DNA from: Cryomorphaceae bacterium BACL7 MAG-120322-bin74
GTDB lineage: Bacteria; Bacteroidota; Bacteroidia; Flavobacteriales; Schleiferiaceae
Direction: 5' to 3'
Assembly: GCA_001438205.1 (NCBI GenBank)
Contig: LICG01000010.1
Location: forward strand, 1-56,008
Length of the DNA stretch: 56,008 nt
Shown here piece by piece: positions 49,857-56,008 of the stretch (position 1 is its first letter; every line of letters starts with the position of its first letter). The notes under the pieces are model-generated. The model saw only the letters and a list, made by a program, of their open reading frames with translations, did no database searches and was not told the DNA's origin. The translations under genes were made by a program, and so were the position numbers.

Positions 49857-50948
49857 CTAAGCCATTTGACCCATTAGGCGCAGATGCGCTACATGCGACT
49901 TAACCGCACTGGCGAAGGTTTTAAATTCGGTATAAGAGACATTAAATTCTGAGCACGTCTCTTTCACGATTTTGGCTAAATCAGGGTAGTGTATGTGCGA
50001 GATCCGGGGGAAAAGATGATGTTCTACCTGAAAATTGAGACCGCCCAAGAACCAAGTCAAGAACTTGCTTTTCGTAGCAAAATTAGCCGTGGTAGTAATC
50101 TGATGAATGGCCCATTCCTCTTCGGTCTCAAGGGCTTTCTCATGGGAGTGCGATGCAAAGGATGCTTCGGTCACCACGTGGGCTAATTGAAATACAAACG
50201 CGAGAACAAATCCAGCTACCATGCCCATCAACATAAAACCTCCAAGCCAAGGTAAAAAGCCCAATTTCAATATAGGAAATCCGACAAACAGGCCAAGATG
50301 CAACGCTTTCCACCCCCAAAAACCTATGTGCTGAGCACGTGTCAGCTTAGGAATTGGCACATTGCCTACTTTCCCTAGAAAGTATTTTTTGTAGTCCGTG
50401 TAGACGACCCATTGGATGTACAAAAATGCATAGAGTGCTGAAAAGTAAATGTGCTGAAAGCGGTGGATGCCCAATCGCTCTTGACTAGGCGCCATGCGCA
50501 ACAAGGCGCCAGCATCAATATCGTCATCTACCCCTTCAATATTGGTAAAGGTGTGGTGCACGGTGTTGTGCTTGGTTTTCCACATCAAAATACTTGCGCC
50601 CAAAAAGTTGACGGTATGACCTGCCATTTCGTTGAGCCAATCATACTTTGAAAAGCTCCCATGGGCACCGTCATGCATAATGTTAAAACCAATGGCTGCA
50701 GTAAGAAGGCCCATGGCCAACCACAACATCCACGCCACTTCAAATGTGGGGGCGGCAATGACCAAGCTGAGGTAGGATGCTAAAAAAGCGGTAATAAAGA
50801 AGCCCGTCTTCACATAAAGTCGCATATTGCCTTTTGGGCTAATATTATTCGAGGTGAAGTGGGCATTGACCCGCTTGGTCAATTCTTGATAGAAAGGCTG
50901 ACCCGCTTTGGGCGCAAACCGCGGCGCACGGAAAAGAGGTTGTGACAT
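49857..50948 (-). CDS. Membrane fatty acid desaturase (acyl-CoA / linoleoyl-type)
   Basis: 363 residues. Three histidine boxes bind the di-iron centre: MHDGAHGSF, KHNTVHHTF and QVEHHLFP. Helical segments lie at about 50-95 and 200-240. It introduces a double bond into acyl chains, likely for membrane fluidity. The regiospecificity (delta-9, delta-6 or other) cannot be told; the HDGAH and QxxHH boxes resemble front-end type enzymes without the cytochrome b5 domain. The -7 box TACCTTCG ends 5 bases before the ATG, so the mRNA is probably leaderless. Confidence 0.92.
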   Translation of the reverse strand: MSQPLFRAPRFAPKAGQPFYQELTKRVNAHFTSNNISPKGNMRLYVKTGFFITAFLASYLSLVIAAPTFEVAWMLWLAMGLLTAAIGFNIMHDGAHGSFSKYDWLNEMAGHTVNFLGASILMWKTKHNTVHHTFTNIEGVDDDIDAGALLRMAPSQERLGIHRFQHIYFSALYAFLYIQWVVYTDYKKYFLGKVGNVPIPKLTRAQHIGFWGWKALHLGLFVGFPILKLGFLPWLGGFMLMGMVAGFVLAFVFQLAHVVTEASFASHSHEKALETEEEWAIHQITTTANFATKSKFLTWFLGGLNFQVEHHLFPRISHIHYPDLAKIVKETCSEFNVSYTEFKTFASAVKSHVAHLRLMGQMA

Positions 50949-51028: not shown

Positions 51029-51985
51029 TTAAAATAATACGGAAGCGATCTGCTCGGTGGCGTCGGCCTTGCCCATGGTGTAGTAATGCAGCACGGGTAC
51101 ACCCTTTTGCATCAGTTCTTTAGATTGTTCAATGCACCATTCAATTCCTACTTGCTTAACCTCCGCAGGCGTTTTTGCCGCTTCGACCGCGTCTACGAGG
51201 TCGTCTGGCAAATTGAGATGGAAGTTTCTTGGAATGGTAGCCAGCTGACCCCCTGTGGCGATGGGCTTAAGTCCCGGTATAATAGGGACTTCAATTCCCG
51301 CTGCGCGGCATTTGTCGACAAAGGCAAAATAATAGGCGTTGTCAAAGAACATCTGGGTCACGATGTACTCTGCGCCTGCTTCCACTTTTGCCTTGAGGTA
51401 CTTTATATCGGTTCGAAGGCTTGGTGCCTCAAAATGCTTCTCGGGGTAACCCGCCACCCCAACACAAAAATTGGAGGGATTGTTGTTTTCTACTTCATCA
51501 TGCAAGTACCGGCCATGGTTAAGGTCCACTACTTGCTTGAGCAAATCAATCGCAAAAGCGTGGCCATTGGGTTCGGGTTTAAACGCGCCATCTGCACGCA
51601 GGGCATCTCCCCGAAGGACCATGACATTGTCAATGCCTAAGAAGTGCAAATCGATGAGGGCGTATTCTGTTTCTTCGCGAGAAAACCCACCGCAAATCAC
51701 ATGGGGGACCGTGTCCACCTTGAATTGGTTCTGAATGGCTGCACAGATGCCCACCGTCCCTGGTCGCTTGCGGGTATGCACTTTTTCTAGCAGACCATTC
51801 TCTCGCTTTTTGTAGACAAATTCCTCCCGATGGCTGGTGACATCAATGAACTTAGGCCCGAATTCTACCAAGCGCTCTATGGTGCCAAAAAGATCATCAA
51901 TGCGCGTTCCCTTGAGCGGTGGTAAAATTTCGAAGCTGAAGAGGGTCTTGCCTTTTGCAGCATGAATATGGTCAATTACTTTCAT
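51029..51985 (-). CDS. metF: Methylenetetrahydrofolate reductase
   Basis: 318 residues. It makes 5-methyltetrahydrofolate, the methyl donor for methionine synthase. Features: FSFEILPPLKGTRIDDLF (Glu at the active site), DVTSHREEFVYKK, IDNVMVLRGDAL (FAD site), VGVAGYPEKHFEAPSL and YIVTQMFFDN. The frame opens upstream inside metH2, but ATG at 51985 (MKVIDHIHAAKGKTLFSFE) is right and lies 4 bases after the metH2 stop. Last gene of metH1-metH2-metF, under SAM-I riboswitch control. No terminator was seen after it. Confidence 0.95.
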   Translation of the reverse strand: MKVIDHIHAAKGKTLFSFEILPPLKGTRIDDLFGTIERLVEFGPKFIDVTSHREEFVYKKRENGLLEKVHTRKRPGTVGICAAIQNQFKVDTVPHVICGGFSREETEYALIDLHFLGIDNVMVLRGDALRADGAFKPEPNGHAFAIDLLKQVVDLNHGRYLHDEVENNNPSNFCVGVAGYPEKHFEAPSLRTDIKYLKAKVEAGAEYIVTQMFFDNAYYFAFVDKCRAAGIEVPIIPGLKPIATGGQLATIPRNFHLNLPDDLVDAVEAAKTPAEVKQVGIEWCIEQSKELMQKGVPVLHYYTMGKADATEQIASVLF

Positions 51986-51989
51986 AGGT

Positions 51990-54620
51990 TCAGAGGTCGA
52001 GCAGGGGGCTAAGCCAACGAGCAGCATCCTCTAAAGAAATGCCACGGCGCTGCGCATAATCCTGCAATTGATCTTGGTTGATTTTTGCCAAGCCGAAATA
52101 CTTGGATTCTGGATGGGCAAAATAATAGCCGCTCACGGCAGCTGTGGGATACATGGCCTTGTGTTCTGTTAGTTGGATCCCTGTATGCTTTTCAACCTCT
52201 AATAAGTCGAATAGAAGGTCCTTCTCTAGGTGGTCCGGGCAAGCGGGGTAGCCCGGCGCAGGCCGAATGCCTTGATAGTCCTCTGAGATGAGTCTATCGG
52301 CATCGAGGTTTTCTGTTGCGGCATAGCCCCAAAATTCTTTTCGCACTCTTTCGTGCACATGCTCGGCAAAAGCTTCTGCCAGCCGATCTGCTAGCGCCTT
52401 TAACATCAAGGCACTGTAATCGTCTTGACTTGCCTCAAAGGCAGCCACGCGCTCGTCCACGCCATGCCCAGTTGTGACCGCAAATAAGCCTAAAGTGTCT
52501 TGACCGGCAGGGTCAATAAAATCGGCTAAAGCCAAATAGGGCAAACCTTCTTTTTTCTGGCCTTGCTGACGCAGTGTCAAGAAATGATGGGTTGCCCCCT
52601 GGGCGTCTTCCACCGCTATATCATCCCCCTTTTGTTTAGCCGCAAAGAAGCCATAGACTCCGTGGGCTTGAAGCCATTTTTCGTCCACAATTTTTTTCAG
52701 CATTGCCTGTGCATCCGCATACACTTCCTGGGCTTGTGCCCCTACTAAGTCATCCTGAAATATGCGCGGAAATTTTCCATGTAAATCCCAGGCCATAAAG
52801 AAGGGGGTCCAGTCAATGTAGGGAACCAACTCTTCGAGTGGGTAATCGCGCAATGGAAAGACTCCGTGGGCTCTGGGGGCAGTAGGTTTCTGCGTAAAGT
52901 CCGGGCGGTATCGGTTGGCCCTTGCCGCTTCAATAGGCATAAAATTGCGTTGACTGCTTCGGTTCGCGTATTGCTCGGCCAAGCGCAGATAGTCTTCTCG
53001 GATTTCTTTGGCAAATTCAGCGCCCTCAGCGCCCAATAATTTCTGTACGACAGGGACAGAGCGGGAGGCATCATTGACATGCACCACAGGGCTATCAATG
53101 GATGGTTGAATTTTGACCGCCGTATGCGCTCTAGACGTGGTTGCCCCGCCAATAAGCAAGGGCTTGATGATGCCCTGGCGCTGCATTTCTGAAGCGAGGA
53201 ACACCATTTCGTCAAGGGAAGGGGTAATCAACCCACTTAGCCCAATCGCATCGACATCATGTTGCACGGCCGCATCGAGAATCTTTTGCGGAGGGACCAT
53301 CACCCCTAGGTCAATGACTTCGTAGTTGTTACACTGCAGCACCACACTGACGATATTTTTACCGATATCATGTACATCCCCTTTGACGGTCGCCATGAGG
53401 ATTTTGCCTTTCTTTCGCGGGGCCGAATCAGACGTTTCAAAAAAGGGTTCCAAGTAGGCGACGGCCTTCTTCATGACGCGCGCCGACTTTACTACTTGAG
53501 GCAAGAACATTTTACCGGCGCCAAAAAGGTCCCCTACCACATTCATTCCGGCCATCAGAGGTCCTTCGATGACCTTTAAAGGGGTACCCAATTCTATACG
53601 CGCCTGCTCCGCATCCGCTTCAATATGGGCATCTAACCCGCTGACCATGCTGTATTCAATGCGTTCGGCAATGGGCAAGAGGCGCCAAGATTCATCCTTT
53701 TCTCGCACAAAAGCGGCACCACGAACGGATTCTGCCAATGTGAGCAAGCGTTCCGTGGCGTCTTCGCGGCGATCGAGTAAAACATCCTCCACGTGTTCGC
53801 GCAAAGCGGGATCGATCTTGTCATACACAATGAGCTGACTCGGATTGACAATGCCCATATCCATGCCGTGCGCGATGCTATGATAGAGAAAACAGGCATG
53901 CATAGCCTCGCGCACTACATCGTTTCCGCGAAAAGAGAAGCTCACATTGGACACTCCGCCGCTCACTTTGGCGCCGGGCAAATGTTGTTTGATCCAGGCG
54001 GTAGCCTCAAAAAAGTCTAGCGCATTGCGACGGTGTTCGTCCATGCCTGTAGCCACCGGGAAGATGTTAGGGTCAAAAATGATGTCCTCGGCAGGAAACC
54101 CGACAACCTCCGTCAATAGGCGGTAGGCTCTTTCACAAATTTCAATGCGCCGTGCATAGCTGTCTGCTTGTCCCTGCTCATCAAATGCCATGACAATCAC
54201 CGCGGCGCCAAAGCGGCGTACCATCTTGGCATGGGCCATAAATTCCGCTTCTCCCTCCTTGAGCGAGATCGAATTGACCACAGCCTTGCCTTGCACACAT
54301 TTGAGCCCCGCGACAATGATGTCCCATTTGGATGAATCAATCATGATCGGAATCCGCGATATGTCCGGCTCCGACGCAATCAGATTTAGGAAGGTGGTCA
54401 TGGCATAGACACCATCCAACATTCCCTCATCCATGTTGACATCTAAGATTTGGGCGCCCCCCTCTACTTGGTCCCGCGCGATGGCGAGTGCCTCTTCATA
54501 CTGCTCTTCTTTGATGAGACGCAAAAATTTGCGCGAACCCGTGACATTGGTGCGCTCTCCTATATTGACAAAGTTGCTTTGCGCCGAAATTTTCAGCGGC
54601 TCTAGTCCACTTAATTTCAT
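51990..54620 (-). CDS. metH: Methionine synthase, folate/cobalamin/activation subunit
   Basis: 876 residues: the C-terminal two-thirds of MetH as a separate protein. A pterin-binding domain (about 1-320: [34 protein letters not shown]) is followed by the cap and cobalamin domains, with axial H417 in [12 protein letters not shown] and downstream [13 protein letters not shown], and the activation domain with the SAM-site motif [12 protein letters not shown] near residue 790. The homocysteine-binding half is the upstream gene, overlapped by 4 bases (ATGA). This split is usual in Bacteroidota. Confidence 0.96.
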
Positions 54621-55609
54621 GCTTGCAGCGGTTTACGGGGTTGAATACCCTGCGCCGCCAAAGCAAAGGCTTTGATGTGGGCTGGGGTGGTACCACAGCA
54701 TCCACCCAGAATATTGACGATGCGCAAGTCGAGGTATTCTTTGACGGCTGCAGCCATGTCTTCGGGGCTTTCATCATAGCCGCCAAAAGCATTGGGCAAC
54801 CCCGCGTTGGGGTAAGCACTGATGAGAAAGGGGGCCTCAGCCGAAAGTGTTTGCAAATAGGGGCGCAAATCTTTGGCCCCCAAAGCACAATTCAGGCCGA
54901 TGCTGAGCAAGGGCATATGACTTAGTGAAATAAGGAAGGCCTCCGTGGTCTGCCCGCTCAAGGTGCGGCCGCTGGCGTCCGTAATGGTGCCACTTACCAT
55001 GATGGGGATTTCTTGTCCGCGCTGTGCAAAAGCCTCTTGAACTGCAAAGAGGGCCGCTTTGGCATTGAGGGTATCAAAGACCGTCTCAATAAGCAATACA
55101 TCCACGCCGCCTTCCATCAAAGCTTCCGCCTGGGTTTGATAGGCCCCCGCTAATTCATCAAAAGTGATGCTCCGATAAGCCGGTCGGTTGACGTCAGGGC
55201 TCAAGGAAAGGGTCCGGTTGGTCGGGCCCATCGCCCCCGCTACAAAGCGCGGTTTGTCCGGTGTGGAGAAGGCTTCTGCCGCCCTTTTGGCGATACGTGC
55301 CCCTTCTAGATTGATCTCGCGGGCCAAGGACTCCATGCCATAGTCTGCCATAGAAATCACCTGTGCATTGAAGGTGTTGGTCTCTATAATGTCCGCGCCT
55401 GCAGCCAAATACTGGCGGTGTATGTCTTCAATGATGTCGGGACGCGTAAGATTGAGCAGGTCGTTGTTCCCCTTAACGGGTTGATGCCACGCAGCAAATC
55501 GTGCACCGCGATAGCCTGCTTCATCCAAACGATAATCTTGAATTAAAGAACCCATGGCCCCATCAAGAATGAGGATGCGTTCGGATGCAGCAGATTGTAG
55601 GGTTGTCAT
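54617..55609 (-). CDS. metH: Methionine synthase, homocysteine-binding subunit
   Basis: 330 residues, homologous to the first domain of MetH. It activates homocysteine on zinc held by C241 (GLNCALGA) and C304/C305 (LGGCCGTTP). The start [20 protein letters not shown] and [12 protein letters not shown] are typical. Its TGA overlaps the ATG of the next gene, so the two halves are made in step and must assemble. The ATG at 55609 lies directly after a hairpin downstream of the riboswitch. Confidence 0.96.
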
Positions 55610-55640
55610 GTCCTGGGTTGTTTATGCTTAACCCAGAAGG
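55610..55640 (-). promoter_or_regulatory. Hairpin between the SAM-I aptamer and metH1 ATG
   Basis: On the minus strand CTGGGTT and AACCCAG pair around a 10-base loop, with outer GTC/GAC pairs, and the stem ends directly at the ATG. A second stem, AGGCAA/TTGCCT, lies between it and the aptamer and uses the 3' strand of P1. Together these look like an expression platform that hides the translation start. Inference from complementarity only. Confidence 0.55.
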
Positions 55641-55657
55641 ACACGAGGCAAATATTG

Positions 55658-55769
55658 CCTTGCGCTCATCTATCTGTGCTGCAACAGCATCAGAGGGAGT
55701 TAGCACCCTTTTTACGGGGTTGCCAAGACGTCGTAGGGCCCTTCCCTCGGTCTTTCTGGATAAGCAAGG
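55658..55769 (-). ncRNA. SAM-I (S-box) riboswitch ahead of metH1-metH2-metF
   Basis: About 112 bases. The minus-strand sequence holds the S-box core in order: CTTATCC, GAGGGA, GGCCC, CTTGGCAACC, GGTGCTAACTCC and GATGAG. P1 is formed by CCTTGC and GCAAGG, extended by TTATC/GATGA. AAGAC/GTCTT form P2. SAM binding should turn off the methionine operon. It lies between the promoter and metH1. Confidence 0.9.
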
Positions 55770-55800
55770 CAAAGGTACGCTTGATTTTGAGGCGAACAAA
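55770..55800 (-). promoter_or_regulatory. Promoter of the metH operon
   Basis: Minus strand TTTG (55800-55797), a 19-base spacer, then TACCTTTG (55777-55770): a full match to the Bacteroidota promoter. The start of transcription would fall at the 5' end of the SAM-I aptamer. Confidence 0.8.
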
Positions 55801-55859
55801 TCCGAAATTCTACACCCATCTTCTTTTTTAGTCAAAATGTACCTAAAAGTAAAAAAGGA

Positions 55860-55889
55860 TTGCGCAATTCCCTTAGGCACTTACCTTTG
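55860..55889 (+). promoter_or_regulatory. Promoter of the divergent SAM-II transcript
   Basis: ATTG (TTG at 55860-55862), a 19-base spacer and TACCTTTG (55882-55889). It points out of the window and would start RNA at about 55894, just ahead of the SAM-II-like element. Between the two promoters (55801-55859) I see only AT-rich spacer. Confidence 0.8.
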
Positions 55890-55895
55890 CTCCTG

Positions 55896-55945
55896 TGTGG
55901 AAGGATTTGTCCGATTGCAACCACGGTAAAAAATGCTAAACCCGG
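55896..55945 (+). ncRNA. SAM-II-like riboswitch
   Basis: About 50 bases, the size of a SAM-II aptamer. In order: P1 5' strand TGTGG (55896-55900), GGATTTG, CCG, ATTGCA (55914-55919), P1 3' strand CCACG (55921-55925), a TAAAAA linker, and TGCTAAA (55934-55940). These match the SAM-II plan of P1, the GATTT / CCG-ATTGCA loop and the GCTAAA pseudoknot strand. The regulated gene lies beyond 56008 on the plus strand. Confidence 0.75.
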
Positions 55946-55976
55946 CTTTCCGCGTACAGCATTTACCGTTTCTTTT
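55923..55976 (+). terminator. Terminator-like hairpin overlapping the SAM-II core
   Basis: ACGGTAAAAAATGCT (55923-55937) pairs with AGCATTTACCGT (55958-55969) apart from three extra A residues, and TTTCTTTT follows. The left arm is the conserved core of the aptamer, so aptamer folding and this hairpin exclude each other. The remaining 32 bases to the window end hold no start codon that I recognise. Confidence 0.55.
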
Positions 55977-56008
55977 GGCTCCTCCCGCAGTAATACCAAA
56001 ATCATTAC

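Follow-up and report, generated by a model that had tools for sequence, protein, structure and literature searches.

The SAM-II and SAM-I elements and their genes

The window, by which we mean the whole 56,008-nucleotide stretch of DNA under analysis, is the entire contig C10, one of 77 in a 1.74 Mb genome, and it ends at position 56008. Shortly before this end, the plus strand carries TGTGG, GGATTTG, ATTGCA, CCACG, and TGCTAAA, which the original prediction had read as the spaced elements of a SAM-II fold. All five can be read on that strand, and a covariance search bore out the fold, as the Rfam model RF01726 (SAM-II with long loops) matched with an E value of 7.1e-9 and a score above its gathering score. 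P1, GATTTG, GATTGCAACC, and TGCTAAA are present in the Rfam alignment and are invariant across 13 members of the genus. By its sequence the element is a SAM-II riboswitch, and SAM binding is predicted for it. The related model RF00521 (SAM_alpha) had no match here, and its control genomes gave none either. The likeness to these families consists of the same aptamer by covariance score (RF01726) and a position 5' of a SAM gene. A SAM-I riboswitch for metH-metF lies on the opposite strand, so that one intergenic region houses two unrelated SAM sensors. The following features were assigned there and in the adjoining genes:

51029–52027, minus strand: metF, methylenetetrahydrofolate reductase (TIGR00676, 298 bits; cut-off 293.7)
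51990–54620, minus strand: remaining domains of metH as a separate gene (TIGR02082, 1174.5 bits, profile positions 328–1181)
54617–55609, minus strand: N-terminal (homocysteine) part of metH as a separate gene (N-terminal part of the profiles TIGR02082 and NF007024)
55604–55643, minus strand: hairpin whose base includes the metH start codon, a possible SAM-I expression platform (from folding)
55663–55766, minus strand: SAM-I (S box) riboswitch aptamer (RF00162, 68.9 bits; cut-off 44.4)
55770–55777, minus strand: putative promoter element of the SAM-I transcript, TACCTTTG (from the sequence)
55882–55889, plus strand: putative Bacteroidota-type -7 element TACCTTTG, with TTG at 55860–55862 (from the sequence)
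55891–55949, plus strand: SAM-II (long loop) aptamer (RF01726, 59.1 bits; cut-off 44)
55897–55900, plus strand: P1 5' strand GTGG, with its partner CCAC at 55921–55924 in the aptamer (from the Rfam alignment)
55911–55918, plus strand: P2 pseudoknot 5' strand CCGATTGC (from the sequence)
55934–55945, plus strand: presumed P2 3' strand TGCTAAACCCGG (from the sequence and the Rfam alignment)

The pairing of 55911–55918 with 55934–55945 is what we take to be P2 of the SAM-II fold. By eye, and uncounted, P2 shows CTG..CAG in some loci where others show CCG..CGG. A second SAM-II copy was not found among the 150 of 667 first-look candidates scored in the same genome. An upstream ORF starting from the ATG within AAAAAATGCTAAA was considered as well and was dropped, because its frame ends differ among relatives and some of them (a handful, inspected by eye) have GTG or AGG in place of the ATG. 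The motif TAnnTTTG, presumably the Bacteroidota -7 promoter consensus, is found a short distance 5' of the aptamer in 98 of 116 SAM-II leaders, compared to 1 of 116 control stretches taken 76–100 nt upstream, and 10 of the 14 loci with a closely spaced back-to-back pair described below have an element of this type upstream of SAM-I. Because promoter elements precede both aptamers, the SAM-I and SAM-II transcripts probably have separate starts.

The contig ends before the gene that the SAM-II element would control. The genome has a single metK match, which sits at the extreme end of contig C32 with its ATG beginning at the second base (TATGAGC...), and the ends of C10 and C32 have no sequence overlap. 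When 13 members of the genus were aligned, the window stopped where the other 12 have TATG, AATG, or CATG. From these two contig ends and the alignment, metK most likely lies directly 3' of the SAM-II element. The broader survey comprised 116 SAM-II leaders from three overlapping sets: 60 relatives (this genome included), 247 class members, and 88 family members. Six of these leaders fell slightly under the RF01726 cut-off (E < 0.001) and were retained. The next gene was metK in 114 of the 116, and contig ends truncate the remaining two, the window and G168. Searching named genomes with a DNA pattern returned at least 118 loci, 68 of them titled Bacteroidales; metK was next in 111 of the 118 listed and in three more by eye, where the MetK sequence has one differing motif letter, while the other four were too short or at an edge. 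A position within the 5' leader of a SAM gene thus holds directly in the relatives, and for the window by way of the facing contig end. The original prediction was right in expecting a SAM-linked gene downstream, although the gene is evidently metK and not the metX, metA, or metY that it had named.

On the other strand, no second SAM-I copy was found among the 150 of 151 first-look candidates scored in this genome. The fold of 55595–55668 (minus strand) has an energy of -22.6 kcal/mol (z -2.87), which was equaled by 3 of 200 shuffles. Within 51990–55609, metH is split into genes of 330 and 876 amino acids with a 4-base end overlap. A fatty-acid desaturase-like gene follows metF at 49857–50948 (minus strand); its NCBIfam matches to DesA/DesB are weak and far below cut-off. 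The two aptamers lie on opposite strands with 124 nt between them. Among the 60 genomes (this one included), 41 have SAM-II, 41 have SAM-I, and 36 have both. A divergent pair 66–136 nt apart occurs in 14 of the 60, and one within 2.5 kb in 23, with some hidden by fragmented contigs. In all 14 back-to-back loci the SAM-I strand contains an ORF bearing the N-terminal motif of MetH, and in 9 of them the first metH gene has 330 amino acids. Three members of the genus (G012, G014, and G006; loci L019, L024, and L026) have divergent SAM-I and SAM-II elements ~1.36 kb apart. In the sample of 247 class members, SAM-II was found in 40 (34 over the cut-off), SAM-I in 177, and both in 34. Two members of the genus, G015 and G013, keep a SAM-I element that faces metK. 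In G015 (L034, 1693–1749) the SAM-II is diverged (26.3 bits, below cut-off, and excluded from the members), whereas in G013 (L035) SAM-II was undetected; a loss of the metK switch is possible in both. Seven other members of the genus are also without a SAM-II match.

Complementarity between the leader and the aptamer

The original prediction had also proposed that a segment downstream of the aptamer forms an alternative hairpin that excludes the aptamer core. This segment, AGCATTTACCGT at 55958–55969, pairs in the minimum free energy (MFE) fold with CGGTAA...ATGCT, which comprises the A-rich linker and the pseudoknot 3' strand. Taken by itself, that fold is unexceptional (z -1.29; 24 of 200 shuffles were equally good). 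When the AGCATTTACCGT duplex was tested specifically, it stood out from both shuffled leaders (p 0.035) and the leaders of other genera (p 0.010). The hairpin is, by sequence complementarity, part of a larger structure in which the leader complements nearly the whole aptamer:

55958–55990, plus strand: predicted anti-aptamer leader strand (MFE fold; aptamer-leader pairing -20.2 versus a shuffle mean of -6.6 kcal/mol)

In reverse order, this strand complements the pseudoknot 3' strand, the linker, the P2 5' strand, GGA..GGA, and the 5' P1 region. The shuffled pairing energies had a standard deviation of 3.2 kcal/mol, and the window reached p 0.005, the lowest value that 200 shuffles allow; with 76 leaders from other genera as the null, p was 0.013. 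Both the duplex test and the whole-aptamer pairing test support an alternative hairpin that is mutually exclusive with the aptamer, as had been predicted.

Folds from many genera showed the same arrangement: in reverse order, the leader pairs with the P1 5' strand, GGAAGGAUUUG, the P2 5' strand, the linker, and UGCUAAA, so that the aptamer is taken up into a single long hairpin. We compared the aptamer-leader interaction energies to those of dinucleotide-shuffled leaders, which yielded p<0.05 for 74 of 115 leaders (mean -12.4 versus -5.5 kcal/mol). To allow for the non-independence of related genomes, the combined test took genus medians, and Fisher's method over 50 of them gave 1e-26. In a rerun with controls, the mean z was -2.60 with 66 of 114 at p<0.05, whereas equal-length controls from the metK coding region (z 0.05, 4/114) and from upstream (z 0.02, 3/114) were null. 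G168, cut by a contig end, was omitted from the 115-leader tests and both G168 and G000 from the 114-leader tests. The pairing is also ordered, as the positions of the partners in the leader run in reverse, with medians of 44, 36, 33, 29, 22, 17, 13, 9, and 9 nt when taken from the 5' flank to the 3' tail (G168 and G031 omitted). A second set, ungrouped by genus, was drawn from the 111 listed pattern loci by subtracting 5 common to the first set and 2 duplicates. Its 104 leaders gave z -1.66 with 30 of 104 at p<0.05, compared to 3 of 104 in each of two controls, and the figures were near-identical for the second set with 4 removed (105 loci).

Shuffling is a generous null, and the leaders of other genera themselves complement the conserved aptamer. 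With other-genus leaders as the null, the excess shrank to 23 of 100 at p<0.05 (Fisher 1.9e-6; 15 of the 115 were left out of this tally for having fewer than 15 foreign leaders of sufficient length), with 6 of 13 in the window's own genus versus 1 of 23 outside the order. Counted as exact complements, own segments were no better than those of other genera for the P1 5' strand (p 0.57) or the P2 5' strand (p 0.41), and they were better for the P2 3' strand (p 0.014). RNAalifold detected no pair with changes in both partners in the genus alignments A1 (13 sequences) and A2 (16 sequences), where alignment of the leader is poor and the aptamer side is under constraint; a 7-bp aptamer-leader helix was recovered as the main consensus helix of A2, and A1, the window's own genus, returned only the aptamer's own pairs. 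The pseudoknot-strand hairpin alone was a weaker signal than the whole-aptamer test, with p<0.05 for 14 of 47 leaders within the order and 4 of 29 outside it, and against foreign leaders Fisher's method gave 0.003 for the family and 0.14 for the whole set. GCAATC occurs with GATTGC (13/79) and GCAAGC with GCTTGC (16/32), and the two are never crossed, which carries little weight because the 16 represent one genus.

The metK start region and competing explanations

In 114 leaders, the metK ATG lies 44–150 nt (median 66.5) past the end of the aptamer model, which places these elements outside the direct-occlusion type, in which the ribosome-binding site is within P2. Leader and start region are complementary beyond expectation in the first set (z -0.85, 26/114, versus 3, 5, and 9 of 114 for coding controls) and, among the listed pattern loci, in the second (z -0.59, 16/104 versus 6/104). 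Within the window's own genus the effect was not above chance (z -0.43, 2/12; by folding z 0.09, 0/12), so that this complementarity is weakly shown and only outside the genus. The start region was more paired in folds with the aptamer withheld (0.49 versus 0.44, n = 115), and it was paired at 0.57 versus 0.51 with shuffled leaders (22/114 at p<0.05), a small effect. Two candidate features of the window belong here, each from folds that assume C10 and C32 to abut and that have no pseudoknot energy term:

55976–55981, plus strand: TGGCTC, candidate partner of the metK start
55989–56008, plus strand: AGTAAT...ATTAC(T), a predicted small hairpin directly 5' of the metK start (aptamer-withheld fold)

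In the free fold, TGGCTC belongs to the aptamer-paired stretch; with the aptamer withheld, its partner is GAGCTA at the metK start. Both the TGGCTC-GAGCTA and the AGTAAT-ATTACT pairings compete with the aptamer pairing in these folds. Because the own genus is not above chance, the start pairing in the window is a suggestion only.

Evidence for termination was sought in the same leaders. A simple terminator scan of 55500–56008 found none (0.6 expected), and self-folding of the leaders was weaker than that of shuffles (z +0.41, 1/114 at p<0.05). Thus, the leaders have no evident hairpin or terminator of their own, nor was the intrinsic terminator found that terminator-type SAM-II elements have between P2 and the gene. 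The original prediction had noted a T run after its hairpin and suggested from it a reversed logic, in which the hairpin would terminate transcription without SAM and SAM would turn the gene on. The window does have the hairpin followed by TTTCTTTT, and past the outer end of the long hairpin T runs occur slightly more often than in the shuffled controls (23/115 versus 123/896), although none of the 13 own-genus leaders has one there. After the pseudoknot-strand helix itself, T runs are at the level of chance (14/94 versus 61/461), and the window is the only one of its 13 genus members to have one. With the metK start included in the fold, the anti-aptamer helix runs on beyond the T run to ~55990. 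Activation by its own product would also make little sense for a SAM synthetase. Taken together with the empty terminator scan, this renders a reversed switch highly improbable. The accompanying idea of an anti-sequestering element fared better, as it comes close to the mechanism that we propose below.

Two further explanations accept the anti-aptamer pairing and differ in its consequence. The leader, hidden within the long hairpin in the free state, could upon release by SAM let Rho load onto a C-rich, G-poor, unstructured RNA and terminate transcription before metK. The leaders (up to -30) indeed have 26% C and 16% G, while C equals G in the 200 nt upstream, and they are unusually unstructured on their own. 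The C excess, however, follows from complementarity to a G-rich aptamer and is for that reason not independent evidence, and Rho would leave the complementarity between leader and start region unexplained; we regard this explanation as unlikely. Alternatively, the pairing might merely tune the affinity for SAM or shield the mRNA from decay, with metK controlled in some other way. The small size of the start-region effect, and its absence in the own genus, would fit such a role, but the second set repeats the leader-start complementarity, and we consider tuning or shielding rather less likely still.

A strand-exchange model and its relation to known SAM riboswitches

The reading that we favor, and hold to be reasonably probable, is that the SAM-II element controls metK by strand exchange and is OFF with SAM, with SAM binding assumed from the aptamer. 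Its starting points are evident in the sequences, namely the aptamer, the metK target in relatives, the promoter position, and the aptamer-leader complementarity. Without SAM, the leader would pair with nearly the whole aptamer as one long hairpin, the A-rich metK start would remain open, and metK would be translated (ON). With SAM, the freshly made aptamer would be bound and held by its pseudoknot; because the SAM-bound pseudoknot holds the aptamer, the leader would be blocked from it, and the freed leader would tend toward the metK start region and reduce translation (OFF). The co-transcriptional timing of these events, and an effect upon translation in place of Rho-dependent termination or RNA decay, are what we infer. 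A normal OFF logic for a gene whose product makes SAM is the best reading of the data, and the reversed logic is not supported.

A broader proposal, which we advance tentatively and which may well prove wrong, is that a reverse complement of nearly the entire aptamer is the expression platform across the Bacteroidia and serves as a one-way timer, joined in part of the group by a SAM-I on the opposite strand that gates metH-metF. Under such a timer, SAM could bind only once the aptamer is complete and before the leader has emerged, and transcripts still unbound would then be locked ON by the long hairpin.

Several points of comparison are offered by the accessible parts of published accounts. 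The metA element has a promoter just before P1 (PMC1273637), and the window is alike in this respect. The metX SAM-II has its ribosome site inside P2 and acts by direct occlusion (PMC10907184), and many other SAM-II elements have intrinsic terminators (PMC2258182); the present element differs from both in the distance of its ATG from the model and in a leader that competes for nearly the whole aptamer. Another parallel is the Sinorhizobium meliloti metA SAM-II, which acts on a distant AUG with the involvement of a Shine-Dalgarno sequence in the riboswitch and a terminator (PMC9373788). The start codon is far from the aptamer in both cases, whereas the portion of that account available to us describes no whole-aptamer competitor. 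Tandem SAM-II/SAM-V elements, as well as SAM-II together with SAM-I/IV, were reported in 2022 within one transcript (PMC9481103). Two classes of SAM sensor lie side by side there as they do here, but here each strand carries one of the two sensors, SAM-I or SAM-II, together with a promoter-like element and genes that belong to it. Coexistence as such is therefore already known, while the divergent arrangement was not found in print. As far as the open-licence literature was accessible, it holds no description of a whole-aptamer competitor for SAM-II (PMC2864571 and PMC12121620 included) or of a divergent SAM-I/SAM-II pair, neither of which is proof of novelty, and no account of SAM-II action in Bacteroidota, where the metK ATG is far from the aptamer.

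The whole-aptamer competitor gives a model of the switch that is clear and open to testing, as well as a natural setting in which to study kinetic control. If the broader proposal is true, the recycling and the use of methionine would be set by two differently designed sensors within one intergenic region.
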